A DNA stretch of 54,028 nt from assembly GCA_003478935.1 (NCBI GenBank), contig QUFP01000033.1, positions 1 through 54,028 on the forward strand, read 5' to 3'. The stretch comes from Firmicutes bacterium AF25-13AC (lineage in GTDB: Bacteria > Bacillota > Clostridia > Lachnospirales > Lachnospiraceae). The notes beneath the pieces are model-generated. The model was given only the letters and a program-made list of their open reading frames with translations, was not told where the DNA came from and did no database searches. How positions within the stretch are numbered: the first letter of the stretch is position 1; every line of letters starts with the position of its first letter. Both the position numbers and the translations under genes were made by a program. Below are positions 498 through 3,579 of the stretch, in pieces.

Positions 498-659
498 CTA
501 TAATCCATTGGCATCACCTACCAACAGTTCATTGTGACCTGTGCCATATGTTTCAGCAGTATCAAATAACGTACAGCCTAGCTCATACGCCTTGCGGATC
601 AGGCATAGTACCGCGTCATGCTCTGGCACCGCACCGTAAGGGACTGCTACTCTAACAAT
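498..659 (-). pseudogene. aldo/keto reductase fragment
   Basis: Reading leftward from 659, a 53-codon frame ends at TAG (498-500). It carries the hallmark start of the aldo/keto reductase barrel: FDTAETYG followed by NELLVG, with the catalytic Asp and Tyr, preceded by an AYELGCTLF strand. A full enzyme is about 280-330 residues. Here both the N-terminal strand with a start codon and most of the C-terminal barrel are missing. The piece abuts the 3' end of the ABC exporter and is a dead remnant. Confidence 0.75.
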
Positions 660-668
660 AAAAAACAA

Positions 669-2354
669 TTATTTCACATTCGCATTATACAAGTCCATAA
701 AATAAGAATCTGTATGTAGTAGTTCTTCAAAAGTACCTTGTCCAACAATCCTCCCTTCTTTAAAGAGAATAATTCTATCAAAACCTGCGATGGAATTTAA
801 TCTATGTGCAATGGCAATGACAGTTTTATCTTTCATTTTTTGCATAACTGATTTCATTACATTTTCTTCTGTTAAATTATCCATTGCAGATGTTGCTTCA
901 TCCAAAATGACAAGTTCGGAGTCTTCAAACCACAAGCGAGCTAATGCAAGTCTTTGTTTTTCTCCACCCGATAAACAAGTACCTTTCTCACCAATTTCAG
1001 TATTTAAACCTTCCGCAAGATTTTCAACTAAATGAGATAGTTGCACTTCACTCAATGCCCCTAGCATTTGTTCCTCTGACACTTGTTTCTCAAATACCAG
1101 ATTTTCTTTTATTGTTCCGTCAAAAACAGGGGCATCCTGTGATAGATAACTAACTCTATCATACAGATTATTAAGACAAATTTCTTTTAACTCCATGTCT
1201 CCTAAGCGAACTTCTCCTTGATTATATTTTAGCAACCCTAATAATATCCTAATCAAGGTCGATTTTCCGGAACCACTTTCTCCTACAAAAGCTATTTTTT
1301 CTCCCTTTTGTATTGACAGGCTCAAGCCATCAATAATTTTTCGTTCCTCATATTGGAATGATAAATTTCTTATTGCAATTTTTCCAACATTTGTATTTAT
1401 TGCGTTACCGTTTCTTAATTGAACATCGTCTTTTAAGCCTAAAAATTCCTCAAATCTCTTATACGATGCCTTGTCCAATTTATATTGGACATAAAGTACA
1501 TTAAAAATGGCAATTGGCGTATAAGCATTTTCAATCAGTGCAATTAGTGCAACCACAGAACCTACTGTAAGGTTTTTCGTTCTCCATGCATAAAAAAGAA
1601 TACCAATATCTAACATTGCCACAAGTAGTGCAAATATTGTGAAGAATGCTTCATGAATCATATTCATTTTTACTTTTGATGAAACAATATCCTCTTTTGC
1701 ATTACAAGTCTTCTTTATTTCACTCGGGAACTGTTTACTCATACGAAATACCAACATTTCCATATAGCCTCTGACCAAATAGTGATTTAATAGTTCTTCA
1801 CTATTCAAAATCTTTTCTTTTATTTTGTAAAGAAACTTTAATAGAATGTTGGTTATTATAAAAATAGCTGTATAGCCTGCAAACAGTACATAAGTGATTT
1901 TTTCATCTATTTTCCAAATAAAGCATATACTAAAACCAATGGTAGGAAGTAAGTCACGAATCAAACACAACCAGAAATTGAATAATACATTTCTTCCTGC
2001 TACTGAACCATTCTCAATCCTTTGAATAAGTTTGCCCGTACCTATTTTCTGATATTCCGTATAATCGATTGTACTTATTTTTCTAAGTGACAAAAGCTTA
2101 AAATCCAGATAAATACCATGTTCCAACTTCTTTTCAGGGTAATTATCCAGATAATTCATACAATAATTTACCAGCAAAATAAAGCCATATGTTGCAACTC
2201 CTGCAAATGCAAGTGTTCTATCAGCTAATCCATCAATAACCTTTTGGAAATAGTCAACCTTGTAATTAGCCATAAATGAATTAAATATACCTAGTCCAAT
2301 GTAGACCAATACCCATATGCTGTTTTTCTTTAATATTTCTTTTATATAACGCAT
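669..2354 (-). CDS. ABC exporter, fused permease and ATPase
   Basis: A 561-residue half-exporter of the MsbA/BmrA type, expected to work as a dimer in the membrane and pump out a drug, peptide or lipid; the substrate is not predictable. The N-terminal ~300 residues hold about six membrane segments. The ATPase follows with Walker A GESGSGKS (near 360), signature LSGGEKQR (near 463) and Walker B LVILDEATSAMD (near 483), all intact. AAAGGAG lies seven bases before the ATG. The 5' leader contains a 13-codon ORF and competing stems (2356-2494), one of which can cover this ribosome binding site, suggesting translational attenuation. A gene fragment lies downstream. No partner half-exporter is adjacent. 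Confidence 0.9.
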   Translation of the reverse strand: MRYIKEILKKNSIWVLVYIGLGIFNSFMANYKVDYFQKVIDGLADRTLAFAGVATYGFILLVNYCMNYLDNYPEKKLEHGIYLDFKLLSLRKISTIDYTEYQKIGTGKLIQRIENGSVAGRNVLFNFWLCLIRDLLPTIGFSICFIWKIDEKITYVLFAGYTAIFIITNILLKFLYKIKEKILNSEELLNHYLVRGYMEMLVFRMSKQFPSEIKKTCNAKEDIVSSKVKMNMIHEAFFTIFALLVAMLDIGILFYAWRTKNLTVGSVVALIALIENAYTPIAIFNVLYVQYKLDKASYKRFEEFLGLKDDVQLRNGNAINTNVGKIAIRNLSFQYEERKIIDGLSLSIQKGEKIAFVGESGSGKSTLIRILLGLLKYNQGEVRLGDMELKEICLNNLYDRVSYLSQDAPVFDGTIKENLVFEKQVSEEQMLGALSEVQLSHLVENLAEGLNTEIGEKGTCLSGGEKQRLALARLWFEDSELVILDEATSAMDNLTEENVMKSVMQKMKDKTVIAIAHRLNSIAGFDRIILFKEGRIVGQGTFEELLHTDSYFMDLYNANVK

Positions 2355-2355
2355 A

Positions 2356-2469
2356 ACTGTACTCCTTTACATATTGTATTTCAAGCATCAGAGCAGTACA
2401 GTCAACGACTACTGGCAAGTTTCTTTTAACCTCAGCACAATCTGCCAACAGTTTACATCAACTGTACTG
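2356..2469 (-). promoter_or_regulatory. candidate attenuator with mutually exclusive stems
   Basis: On the plus strand the word ACTGTACT occurs at 2356-2363 (between ribosome binding site and ATG of the ABC exporter) and at 2461-2468 (end of the leader ORF). Its complement AGTACAGT occurs once between them at 2395-2402. The middle copy can therefore pair with either outer copy: with the distal one, forming a long hairpin that also has TGGCA/TGCCA (2413-2417/2443-2447), or with the proximal one, which would mask the exporter's translation start. This is the layout of translational attenuation. The sign of control is not certain. Confidence 0.55.
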
Positions 2470-2494
2470 AGCAGTTATCTCGGATAATTTTCAT
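2453..2494 (-). CDS. short leader peptide ORF upstream of ABC exporter
   Basis: A 13-codon ORF, MKIIRDNCSVQLM, starts at ATG 2492-2494 with GAGGTG (complement of 2503-2508) eight bases upstream, which is a better ribosome binding site than many real genes here have. It lies about 28 bases after an extended -10 promoter. Its last codons form one strand of the hairpin at 2394-2469. By analogy with leader peptides of inducible ABC transporters such as bmrB upstream of bmrCD, ribosome position on this ORF may set translation of the exporter. The peptide itself may have no other role. Confidence 0.5.
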   Translation of the reverse strand: MKIIRDNCSVQLM

Positions 2495-2527
2495 ATCGTT
2501 CTCACCTCTTCCTAAAAATTTTCTATT

Positions 2528-2533
2528 ATTATA
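2528..2533 (-). promoter_or_regulatory. extended -10 promoter of the ABC exporter leader
   Basis: Read on the minus strand there is TGATATAAT, a perfect TATAAT with the TGn extension. No good -35 stands 17 bases upstream. The likely transcript start near 2521 puts it about 27 bases before the leader ORF. Confidence 0.55.
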
Positions 2534-2772
2534 TCATGCTAAGTTCCAATATTCTATCGTAATTCCGTCAAAAGAATATAAAACAAAGGGCATATTATCT
2601 TATCCCTCTGTCCTTTGTCTGCCTGCTGATACTGTTCCAGTTTTCAGCGGCTTCCCTTTGTAGTCGTGCAAGTTTATCCGACAGTTTTTCATCCTTATGC
2701 GTAGGTGTATCACACCGCATCCTTGTTCATTCCTCATTTCCATGCATTTACACATTTTTAGGACACTTGCAA
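2534..2772. other. intergenic stretch without a convincing gene
   Basis: About 240 bases between the exporter promoter and the fru operon terminator. Leftward there is a short open frame around 2605-2715 rich in Lys, Glu and Arg with no start or ribosome binding site. It may be a remnant, but I cannot assign it. ACAAAGG and CCTTTGT form a weak stem near 2582-2618. Confidence 0.4.
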
Positions 2773-2804
2773 AATTGGGGGCAGGCAGTGAACTGCCCCC
2801 AAAA
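2773..2804 (-). terminator. terminator of the fructose PTS operon
   Basis: Perfect 10-bp stem TTGGGGGCAG / CTGCCCCCAA with an 8-base loop, lying about 30 bases after the stop of the DeoR gene. The minus-strand transcript continues into a short AT-rich run. Confidence 0.85.
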
Positions 2805-2835
2805 CCACTTAAAATTTATGAGTTATCGCACCTCT

Positions 2836-3579
2836 TTAAGCAACAGTGATATTCTTACTTCTTAAAAATGCCTCTGGCGGTTTGCGGTCTGTAATAATCT
2901 GTGCCTTTGCAAATTCCTCGAATGTCACTGAACTGATATTTCCAAACTTCGAATAATCGGCCAGTATGTAGGCCTTTTTTGCCTGCCCGATAGCAGTCTT
3001 TTTGACCATTGCTTCCTCGTAATCCGGCGTACTAAATCCAGCCTTTAGGCTGACACCATTTGTGCCGAAAAACGCCTTTGAAAAATGAAGTGTCTCTAGG
3101 CTAAGAATCGCCTGATTACCTACAACAGCCTCTGTAGTTGGCTTTAACTCACCGCCTATCAGATAAACACGAAAACCTGCTGCTGCCAGCTTTTGTGCAT
3201 GACTGACCGCATTTGTTACATATGTTGCACTTTTTTCTGTTATAAAATCAATCATGCAACCTGTTGTTGTTCCTGCATCTAGATAGACGAAGTCATCCTG
3301 TGTAATCAGCGCTGCCGCATAGCGTGCAATCAGCTGTTTTTCTTCTTTGTTGACACCTTTTTTCTGTGCAACAGAGGGCTCTGCTGTTGTAATTCCAGCT
3401 TCAATCGCCACTGCGCCTCCAAATACCTTATTTAACTTTCCAGCCCTGTCAAGCGCATTTAAATCACGGCGAATTGTAGACTCGGAAATCTTTAGTTTTT
3501 CCTTGATCTCCGCCACAGTAACGCTGTTTTGCTCATCAAGCAGTTTCAAAATTAGTTCATATCGTTTTTCCGTAAGCAT
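2836..3579 (-). CDS. fruR: DeoR-family repressor of the fructose operon
   Basis: A 247-residue DeoR-type regulator. The N-terminal winged helix-turn-helix (about 1-56) has the family signature ESTIRRDLNALDRAGK. The C-terminal two thirds is the DeoRC sugar-phosphate sensor, with DAGTTT near 100 and the GGE and FFGTNG segments. In this family fructose 1-phosphate usually releases the repressor. It is the last gene of fruK-fruA-ptsH-ptsI-fruR, three bases after ptsI, and is probably translationally coupled because the purine-rich AAGGA lies inside the ptsI end. Likely operators are the TCAATCA-like repeats before fruK. The family is certain; the effector is inferred from context. Confidence 0.88.
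   Translation of the reverse strand: MLTEKRYELILKLLDEQNSVTVAEIKEKLKISESTIRRDLNALDRAGKLNKVFGGAVAIEAGITTAEPSVAQKKGVNKEEKQLIARYAAALITQDDFVYLDAGTTTGCMIDFITEKSATYVTNAVSHAQKLAAAGFRVYLIGGELKPTTEAVVGNQAILSLETLHFSKAFFGTNGVSLKAGFSTPDYEEAMVKKTAIGQAKKAYILADYSKFGNISSVTFEEFAKAQIITDRKPPEAFLRSKNITVA

Follow-up and report, generated by a model that had tools for sequence, protein, structure and literature searches.

The window, that is, the whole stretch of 54,028 nucleotides analysed here, carries on its minus strand a gene for an ABC exporter and, just upstream of it, a predicted leader ORF accompanied by several short segments that can pair with one another (Table 1). The exporter is ABCB-like: it contains a PF00005 ATPase domain and has full-length sequence matches in the PDB to ABCB1 and its relatives, while none of the best 25 of its 187 NCBIfam matches attains its cut-off. 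A blastn search of plasmid and phage records with the leader region returned zero matches, and a tblastn search of at most 5000 plasmid records with the exporter gave 40% as the best among the matches listed.

Table 1. Positions of the leader elements, pairing strands and exporter gene in the window.
Feature	Position	Strand	Basis
Extended -10 promoter element, TGATATAAT	2528..2536	-	sequence
Ribosome binding site of the leader ORF, AAGAGGTGA	2502..2510	-	sequence
Predicted leader ORF, MKIIRDNCSVQLM, 13 codons plus stop	2453..2494	-	sequence, relatives
CGA, leader codon 5, predicted decision codon	2480..2482	-	65/77 leaders and optimum of the ribosome walks
Strand 1, 5' side of P1 (pairs with 2431-2439)	2463..2471	-	A5: P1 98.6% paired, both-sided change in 4/9 pairs
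Strand 1, 5' side of P4 (pairs with 2394-2404)	2459..2469	-	A5: P4 92.8% paired, both-sided change in 5/10 pairs
P2, 5' side	2442..2451	-	A5: P2 88.1% paired, both-sided change in 7/10 pairs
Strand 2, 3' side of P1	2431..2439	-	
P2, 3' side	2409..2418	-	
Strand 3 (middle strand), 3' side of P4; its 2395-2403 form the 5' side of P3	2394..2404	-	
Exporter ribosome binding site, AAAGGAG	2362..2368	-	sequence
Strand 4, AGTACAGTT, between ribosome binding site and ATG, 3' side of P3	2355..2363	-	
ABC exporter, 561 aa, ABCB-like half-transporter, ATG at 2354	669..2354	-	PF00005, PDB matches

The leader region of the window

The preliminary description of this locus had singled out a leader ORF with a strong ribosome binding site and three copies of one pairing word, and all of these are present where it placed them. 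The word AGTACAGT occurs four times in the 54 kb, both strands counted, against a mean of 0.82 in shuffled sequences, 2 of 100 of which reach four, and three of the four copies lie within 113 bp (2356-2363, 2395-2402 and 2461-2468). The middle copy can pair either with the end of the leader or with the bases at the exporter start; these two pairings, already recognised at that stage, correspond to our helices P4 and P3. The promoter call is less sure than the other leader parts: the TGATATAAT motif of the extended -10 element is in place, but a generic scan did not report it, and the pattern is found upstream of 14 of 70 leaders, a count uncorrected for chance. The 182-nt leader RNA has a computed fold of -41.9 kcal/mol, with a z score of -1.86 and 6 of 200 shuffled sequences equally stable, so that the window taken alone is merely suggestive. 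Conservation is decisive instead and, by comparison of sequences, confirms the competing-word leader in front of the exporter as a real observation. At gathering score, Rfam 15 gives no match in the window; at E values up to 10, the region 2300-2700 has three matches (E 4.4-7.9), far under gathering.

The arrangement of a leader ORF ahead of an ABC exporter recalls bmrB-bmrCD of Bacillus subtilis (PMC4191407), a likeness drawn in the preliminary description, and it would suit a transcription attenuator of that type, as would the run of five T residues found within a few bases after strand 3 in L020 and L023-L025. However, the bmrB leader is longer (162 nt in the constructs), contains an internal terminator and acts on transcription, whereas a scan of the minus strand of window 2250-2850 detected no terminator-like site. 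Since bmrB is a terminator-bearing transcriptional attenuator and no terminator was found here, the comparison is valid in outline alone. The five-T run is not general and is therefore not read as a terminator, and the last conserved pairing partner is the start site of the downstream gene. As far as tested, the leader is not a transcription attenuator of the bmrB type, and we regard this explanation as very improbable. The patAB attenuator of Streptococcus pneumoniae likewise controls an ABC exporter, but is transcriptional according to the title of its report (PMC4319486). The cplR leader of Clostridioides difficile shares a short uORF, a clostridial host and translational attenuation, but adds transcription termination and controls an ABCF factor, a distinction drawn from the published description (PMC10201436). 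No description of the present leader was found in the literature, which was searched by means other than sequence, so one may exist.

Distribution of the leader and the genes behind it

A scan of genome contigs gave 27 loci with relatives of the exporter, at 55-98% identity. All 26 that include upstream DNA carry a ribosome binding site, a start codon, a peptide that includes some form of RxNYSVQL and the pairing words, and homologous leaders devoid of the ORF and the words, named in the preliminary description as evidence against it, did not appear among them. L022, which begins inside the gene without upstream DNA, was left out of this count; L006 and L008 have a shorter word, AGTACA, at the exporter start. 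L011, with a leader identical to that of L010, was omitted from A1 and A2, and L029, L031, L036 and L037 were omitted as repeats.

In L001-L004, the block of leader and exporter (window 659-2711) is found over 1.85-2.05 kb at 84-98% identity. When the four closest relatives are compared by blastn with the first 9 kb of the window, the matches extend from 659-666, next to the exporter stop at 669, to 2510-2711, with one additional 30-bp match in L002. As the flanks outside leader and exporter are unmatched in these four relatives, the pair seems to travel as a unit, suggesting horizontal movement.

Three covariance models were built in the analysis, R1 and then the broader R2 and R3. Of 79 copies of the leader, 77 are distinct; the next gene, classed by blastp with Pfam support, encodes a methyltransferase in 38, an ABC exporter in 33, a radical-SAM protein in four (three of the SPASM type and one of another type) and an MFS pump in one, and is unassigned in one. 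The MFS pump and the second radical-SAM type are thus represented by a single copy each, and the use of the exporter in the first search inflates the share of exporter-linked copies. L079, whose leader resembles that of L077, and L102, an R3 match, stand outside the 77. This spread to methyltransferase, radical-SAM and MFS genes had not been part of the preliminary description. With R1, 397 genomes from the family to which G012 belongs (G012 being the source of the Lachnospiraceae locus L015) yielded leaders in 28, the filter being strict and missing at least G027, the genome of L102. With R2 and R3, a leader was found in 5 of 299 genomes at phylum level and in 8 of 391 at class level; around G631, in 7 of 299 genomes of the class and 11 of 149 of the order; and in three further families, in 3 of 29, 1 of 1 and 3 of 22 genomes. 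These genome samples overlap, and some genomes were drawn repeatedly.

Many of the leaders found with R1 form a second clade; they precede a class I SAM methyltransferase and mostly have strand 1 as CTCGGTGCAGT, a strand 2 ending in ATCGAG or ACCGAG and strand 3 as CTGCACC. Plasmids of Lactobacillaceae (Lactiplantibacillus plantarum, L. pentosus and Levilactobacillus brevis) carry the leader at 33-35 bits, ahead of a methyltransferase with 43-45% identity to that of L058. The link between leader and methyltransferase is not obligatory: among nine Lachnospiraceae methyltransferase loci obtained by a protein search of 150 genomes, the leader is present in five and absent in four. R3 gave no leader match at distant methyltransferase relatives (Streptomyces, Pseudomonas and Mycobacterium plasmids) nor at the Fusobacterium and Priestia loci, and the gene context of these distant plasmid relatives held no hint of a substrate. 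One of them, L087, in a Pseudomonas aeruginosa plasmid record and without an R3 leader, is a 35% methyltransferase relative about 0.9 kb from an annotated non-ribosomal peptide synthetase. A pattern search of viral contigs returned nine stretches, of which L067 matches R2 well (59 bits), five score weakly (20-23 bits) and three give no match at E 0.1. Irregular downstream frames were seen at a few loci. The gene behind the L070 leader has an in-frame TGA at the conserved Trp of FKGWDFS, and the exporter relative of L086/L096 has one near its start, with the frame in pieces; either a broken gene or another code would account for each. In L049, the methyltransferase frame passes, by eye, into unrelated symporter-like sequence after about 190 residues, owing to a rearrangement or an assembly join.

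Pairing strands and their covariation

Besides P3 and P4, the leader contains two helices absent from the preliminary description: P1, a rival of P4 for the same leader bases, and P2. Given no structure, RNAalifold returns P4 enclosing P2. The alignment of the window with 25 exporter relatives has 64 invariant columns. Within the exporter clade, P1 and P4 lack both-sided change and are little informative; such change amounts in P2 to three cells in two pairs (a score reached by 11 of 500 shuffles) and in P3 to one. Both clades are covered by A4 and A5, hand-picked diverse subsets of 33 and 32 rows restricted to rows found by the models. In the 33 sequences, 100% of P1, 91.8% of P2 and 96.3% of P4 are paired, with three, five and three pairs changed on both sides, respectively; the values for the 32 more diverse sequences are those of Table 1. 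In all six counts, both the covariation score and the percentage paired exceed those of every one of 500 shuffles. The number of both-sided pairs is matched, in the 33- and the 32-sequence set, respectively, by 92 and 3 shuffles for P1, 3 and 1 for P2 and 2 and 40 for P4; for the number of pair types, between 12 and 500 of the 500 shuffles do so. Helices slid out of register leave at most 58.5% of cells paired and reach a best score of 0.247 (P4, +3) versus 0.326 for the real one.

The majority of the both-sided changes divide the two clades, so that independent events are fewer than the counts. Further separate both-sided changes occur in L051, L059, L060, L070 and L080/L081, and in both L080 and L081 all four words are altered together; L058 has a change in strand 1 without a match in either P1 or P4. 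The alignments show that the predicted helices P1, P4 and P2 are kept through compensating changes. The chief argument for two alternative folds is that P1 and P4 draw on the same bases of the leader and that both persist through change. With strand 1 common to P1 and P4, and strand 3 to P3 and P4, the combinations P1 with P3 (OFF) and P4 with P2 (ON) would be mutually exclusive. The competition between stems that the preliminary description expected of a folding check was seen both here and in the ribosome-blocked ensembles described below, and a leader with two states, real and widespread, is very probably what these loci have in common.

The pairing of strand 3 with the downstream start site was evaluated separately. 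The script picked no start in 7 of 70 loci (L039, L072, L067, L077, L086, L051 and L070), and the other 63 were merged to 55. The mean duplex energy of strand 3 is -11.19 kcal/mol with its own site, -7.67 with swapped sites from loci with another word and -4.98 with shuffled sites. The own site exceeds the swapped mean in 48 of the 55 loci and fails to do so in seven (L006, L040, L056, L059, L071, L076 and L082); in L060, L084 and L085, 34-47% of shuffled sites pair equally well. Where the words have changed (L055, L073, L074, L080 and L081), the own site is bound better than at least 98% of other sites. In most loci, then, the predicted P3, strand 3 with strand 4 over the start, is shown by these comparisons to be matched. 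At L105, a methyltransferase locus for which no leader match was obtained, the start site retains the word GGAGTAGTTAT, possibly as a remnant.

P1 and P2 are both conserved and would make a pseudoknot if formed together, and several bases outside the helices are invariant. Such features could belong to a riboswitch or a protein-binding RNA in which P1 and P2 fold round a ligand and the ORF is incidental. Against this, Rfam gave no match, and 67 of 68 leaders, in a count without chance control, keep an in-frame start and its ribosome binding site despite a distance to codon 5 that varies from 2 to 8 codons. We consider this explanation improbable.

Leader translation and the proposed switch

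The start codon found in 67 of the 68 distinct leaders is preceded by at least four bases matching AAGGAGGTGA in 66 and by three in L086, the script having chosen the best start for each in this uncontrolled count. The startless leader among the 68 is L077; the L. pentosus copy has no ATG, GTG or TTG start. Relative to codon 5, the distance is 2-8 codons back to the start and 6-21 codons on to the stop. Codon 5, whose identity was another point missing from the preliminary description, is CGA in 65 of 77 distinct leaders and differs in the remaining 12; among arginine codons in general, counted over long open frames in the window and in the first 27 loci, the share of CGA is about 10%. In leaders that have it, this CGA precedes P1 by 8 bases. 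CGA is decoded by an inosine-bearing arginine tRNA. Two other roles for this codon were rejected: a conserved helix containing it, as by eye no partner is kept in both clades, and a macrolide stall motif K/R-x-K/R at codons 3-5, as the residues preceding the Arg vary. Over the 68 leaders, codon 7 is Asn in 49, codon 9 Ser in 64, codon 10 Val in 62 and codon 11 Gln (CAG) in 62; Asn, Ser and Val are kept partly via synonymous codons (AAC/AAT, TCA/TCG and GTA/GTG), and a stop takes the place of the Gln codon in L080, L081 and L086. Base pairing is kept more strictly than the end of the predicted peptide.

We blocked a ribosome footprint at each leader codon and computed the resulting RNA ensemble, counting the leading edge from the first P-site base. 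With the edge at 15, in 51 loci, placing codon 5 in the A site brings P4 to its mean peak of 0.86, with P1 at 0.12 and start-site accessibility at its maximum of 0.49. Once the P site has reached codon +1 or beyond, P3 averages 0.95-1 and P4 no more than 0.12, or no more than 0.18 in the 45 of 63 loci left after removal of near-identical cores. In these 45 loci, the maximum of P4 minus P1 falls at the position with codon 5 in the A site in 24, 31 and 34 cases for edges 14, 15 and 16, respectively, and edges of 12 or 18 shift the optimum by one codon. The change in accessibility is modest: in the 45 loci its mean is 0.50 at the optimum, 0.38 without a ribosome and about 0.32 later. It is small in the window itself, 0.38 versus about 0.22, where the start region is 0.98 paired with an upstream stretch even at the optimum. 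As long as strand 3 has not been made (computed for 51 of 70 cores), P1 has a mean of 0.84 on ribosome-free RNA, which falls to 0.52 when codon 5 occupies the A site and to 0.03 when it occupies the P site. In the ribosome-free equilibrium, P4 (0.57) is somewhat favoured over P1 (0.40), so that a default OFF state hinges on the order of folding.

We propose, with a probability of about 0.6, that the leader is a cis-acting translational attenuator which senses where along a very short leader ORF a ribosome stands and switches the downstream gene on if that ribosome is held early. During normal growth, the ribosome would move fast over the leader; for as long as strand 1 is beneath it, strand 3 would pair with strand 4 (P3) and mask the start, and once it has left strand 1, P1 would re-form and lock that strand, leaving P1 with P3 and the gene off. 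If a ribosome is held early, when codon 5 (mostly CGA) occupies the A site or has just left it, its leading edge would strip the first bases of P1 and spare most of the strand of P4, whereupon strand 1 could capture strand 3 (P4 with P2) and set the start site free. The preliminary description had suggested that the middle strand is freed by a ribosome on the leader and then masks the exporter start, an idea that gains support from the words changing together in relatives, so that its interpretation as a whole is partly supported. Control through translation of the leader is quite probable; the sign, OFF on read-through and ON when the ribosome is held early, depends on the computed ensembles and is favoured by a smaller margin of confidence.

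In its proposed working, the leader is like an erm/cat-type translational attenuator but with a different strand exchange. Both have a leader ORF and alternative helices, and the start site of a protective gene, masked by default in erm/cat attenuators, would be so here as well. In erm/cat attenuators, strand 2 becomes free to pair with strand 3 when a ribosome sits on strand 1 (1:2 with 3:4 versus 2:3), whereas the conserved alternative here is 1:3 (P4) enclosing P2, and the 2:3 exchange was not found. Because strand 1 itself pairs with strand 3, the deciding ribosome must halt upstream of strand 1. The methyltransferase behind many copies is a further difference, since it is above no NCBIfam cut-off. 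In the toiL-topAI system of E. coli, the uORF RNA also masks a downstream ribosome binding site and ribosomes at the start or early codons relieve repression, but toiL pairs with its target directly, whereas here a third strand mediates and P1 competes (PMC12121999). According to the same study, in which ermCL serves as a reporter, tetracycline and retapamulin act on toiL at the start codon, and cplR, vmlR and vga(A) are given as likely start-codon cases (PMC12121999).

The common residues Asn 7, Ser 9, Val 10 and Gln 11, kept partly via synonymous codons, raise the alternative of nascent-peptide arrest near the leader end (xNYSVQL), in which regulation would be exerted by a ribosome stalled over strand 1. 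ErmCL is an example of such arrest in a leader. MsrDL is another (PMC10314930). The stop, however, lies 6 to 21 codons past codon 5, L080, L081 and L086 have a stop in place of the Gln codon, and the replacements S9L (L070) and V10M (L051) are accompanied by matching changes in the pairing strands. Moreover, P3 is the computed outcome when strand 1 is covered, so that a stall there would repress rather than induce. Peptide arrest thus appears unlikely, and we retain the early-held ribosome as the state that would open the start site.

The enzymes encoded behind the leader were compared with known folds and families. The predicted fold of the methyltransferase is class I, with a putative methyltransferase, HvrF, BioC and RlmA(I) as best matches at TM 0.5-0.65, which assigned it no function; as modelled, it would be closest to small-molecule methyltransferases and RlmA(I). 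The methyltransferase of L050 has no NCBIfam match, Methyltransf_23 being under cut-off, and that of L046 matches the generic Methyltransf_11. The radical-SAM proteins of L055 and L040 carry PF04055 plus SPASM and have no NCBIfam model above cut-off. The NCBIfam library holds Erm and Cfr models; for the four methyltransferase and radical-SAM proteins tested (L050, L046, L055 and L040), no curated model of these resistance enzymes was above cut-off, and no resistance family was above cut-off among the matches listed for the downstream genes.

Exporters, methyltransferases and radical-SAM proteins are types that occur in peptide maturation, and the leader might encode a tiny modified, RiPP-like peptide handled by the protein downstream. 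The radical-SAM protein of L055 weakly resembles the epimerase YydG, and three of seven loci inspected by eye have other methyltransferase-like (L090, L095) or ABC-like (L091) ORFs within about 5 kb. It is nonetheless the base pairing, including that of the downstream start site, which is most conserved, and the end of the peptide is variable; a RiPP-like product therefore seems highly unlikely.

The same set of exporters, methyltransferases and radical-SAM proteins would fit protection against a compound. As the controlled genes resemble exporters and small-molecule enzymes, our guess for the signal of the proposed attenuator is a translation inhibitor or some other slowing of early decoding, and we give a drug in this role an even chance. 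A broader reading, in our view less probable than not, is that of a portable cassette placed on at least four unrelated superfamilies (ABC exporter, class I methyltransferase, radical-SAM proteins of two types and MFS pump) in at least two Gram-positive classes and forming a regulon against one inhibitor; the leader would then be a positional sensor, in which a ribosome waiting at codon 5, usually CGA, flips 1:2/3:4 to 1:3. The trigger could in that case be an attack on arginine decoding or early elongation and not a known peptide-arrest drug. If right, the proposed switch would give a handle on a hidden stress regulon of Gram-positive bacteria, make every gene behind the leader a candidate protector against the same inhibitor and allow the uncharacterised methyltransferases, radical-SAM proteins and exporters to be tested as one group. 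It would also add to the known translational attenuators a strand-exchange topology in which the leading edge of an upstream ribosome picks between two helices that share a strand.

Two leaders per genome were observed twice: G005 has one before an exporter and one before a methyltransferase (L005/L028), and G249 has both before methyltransferases (L048/L057).
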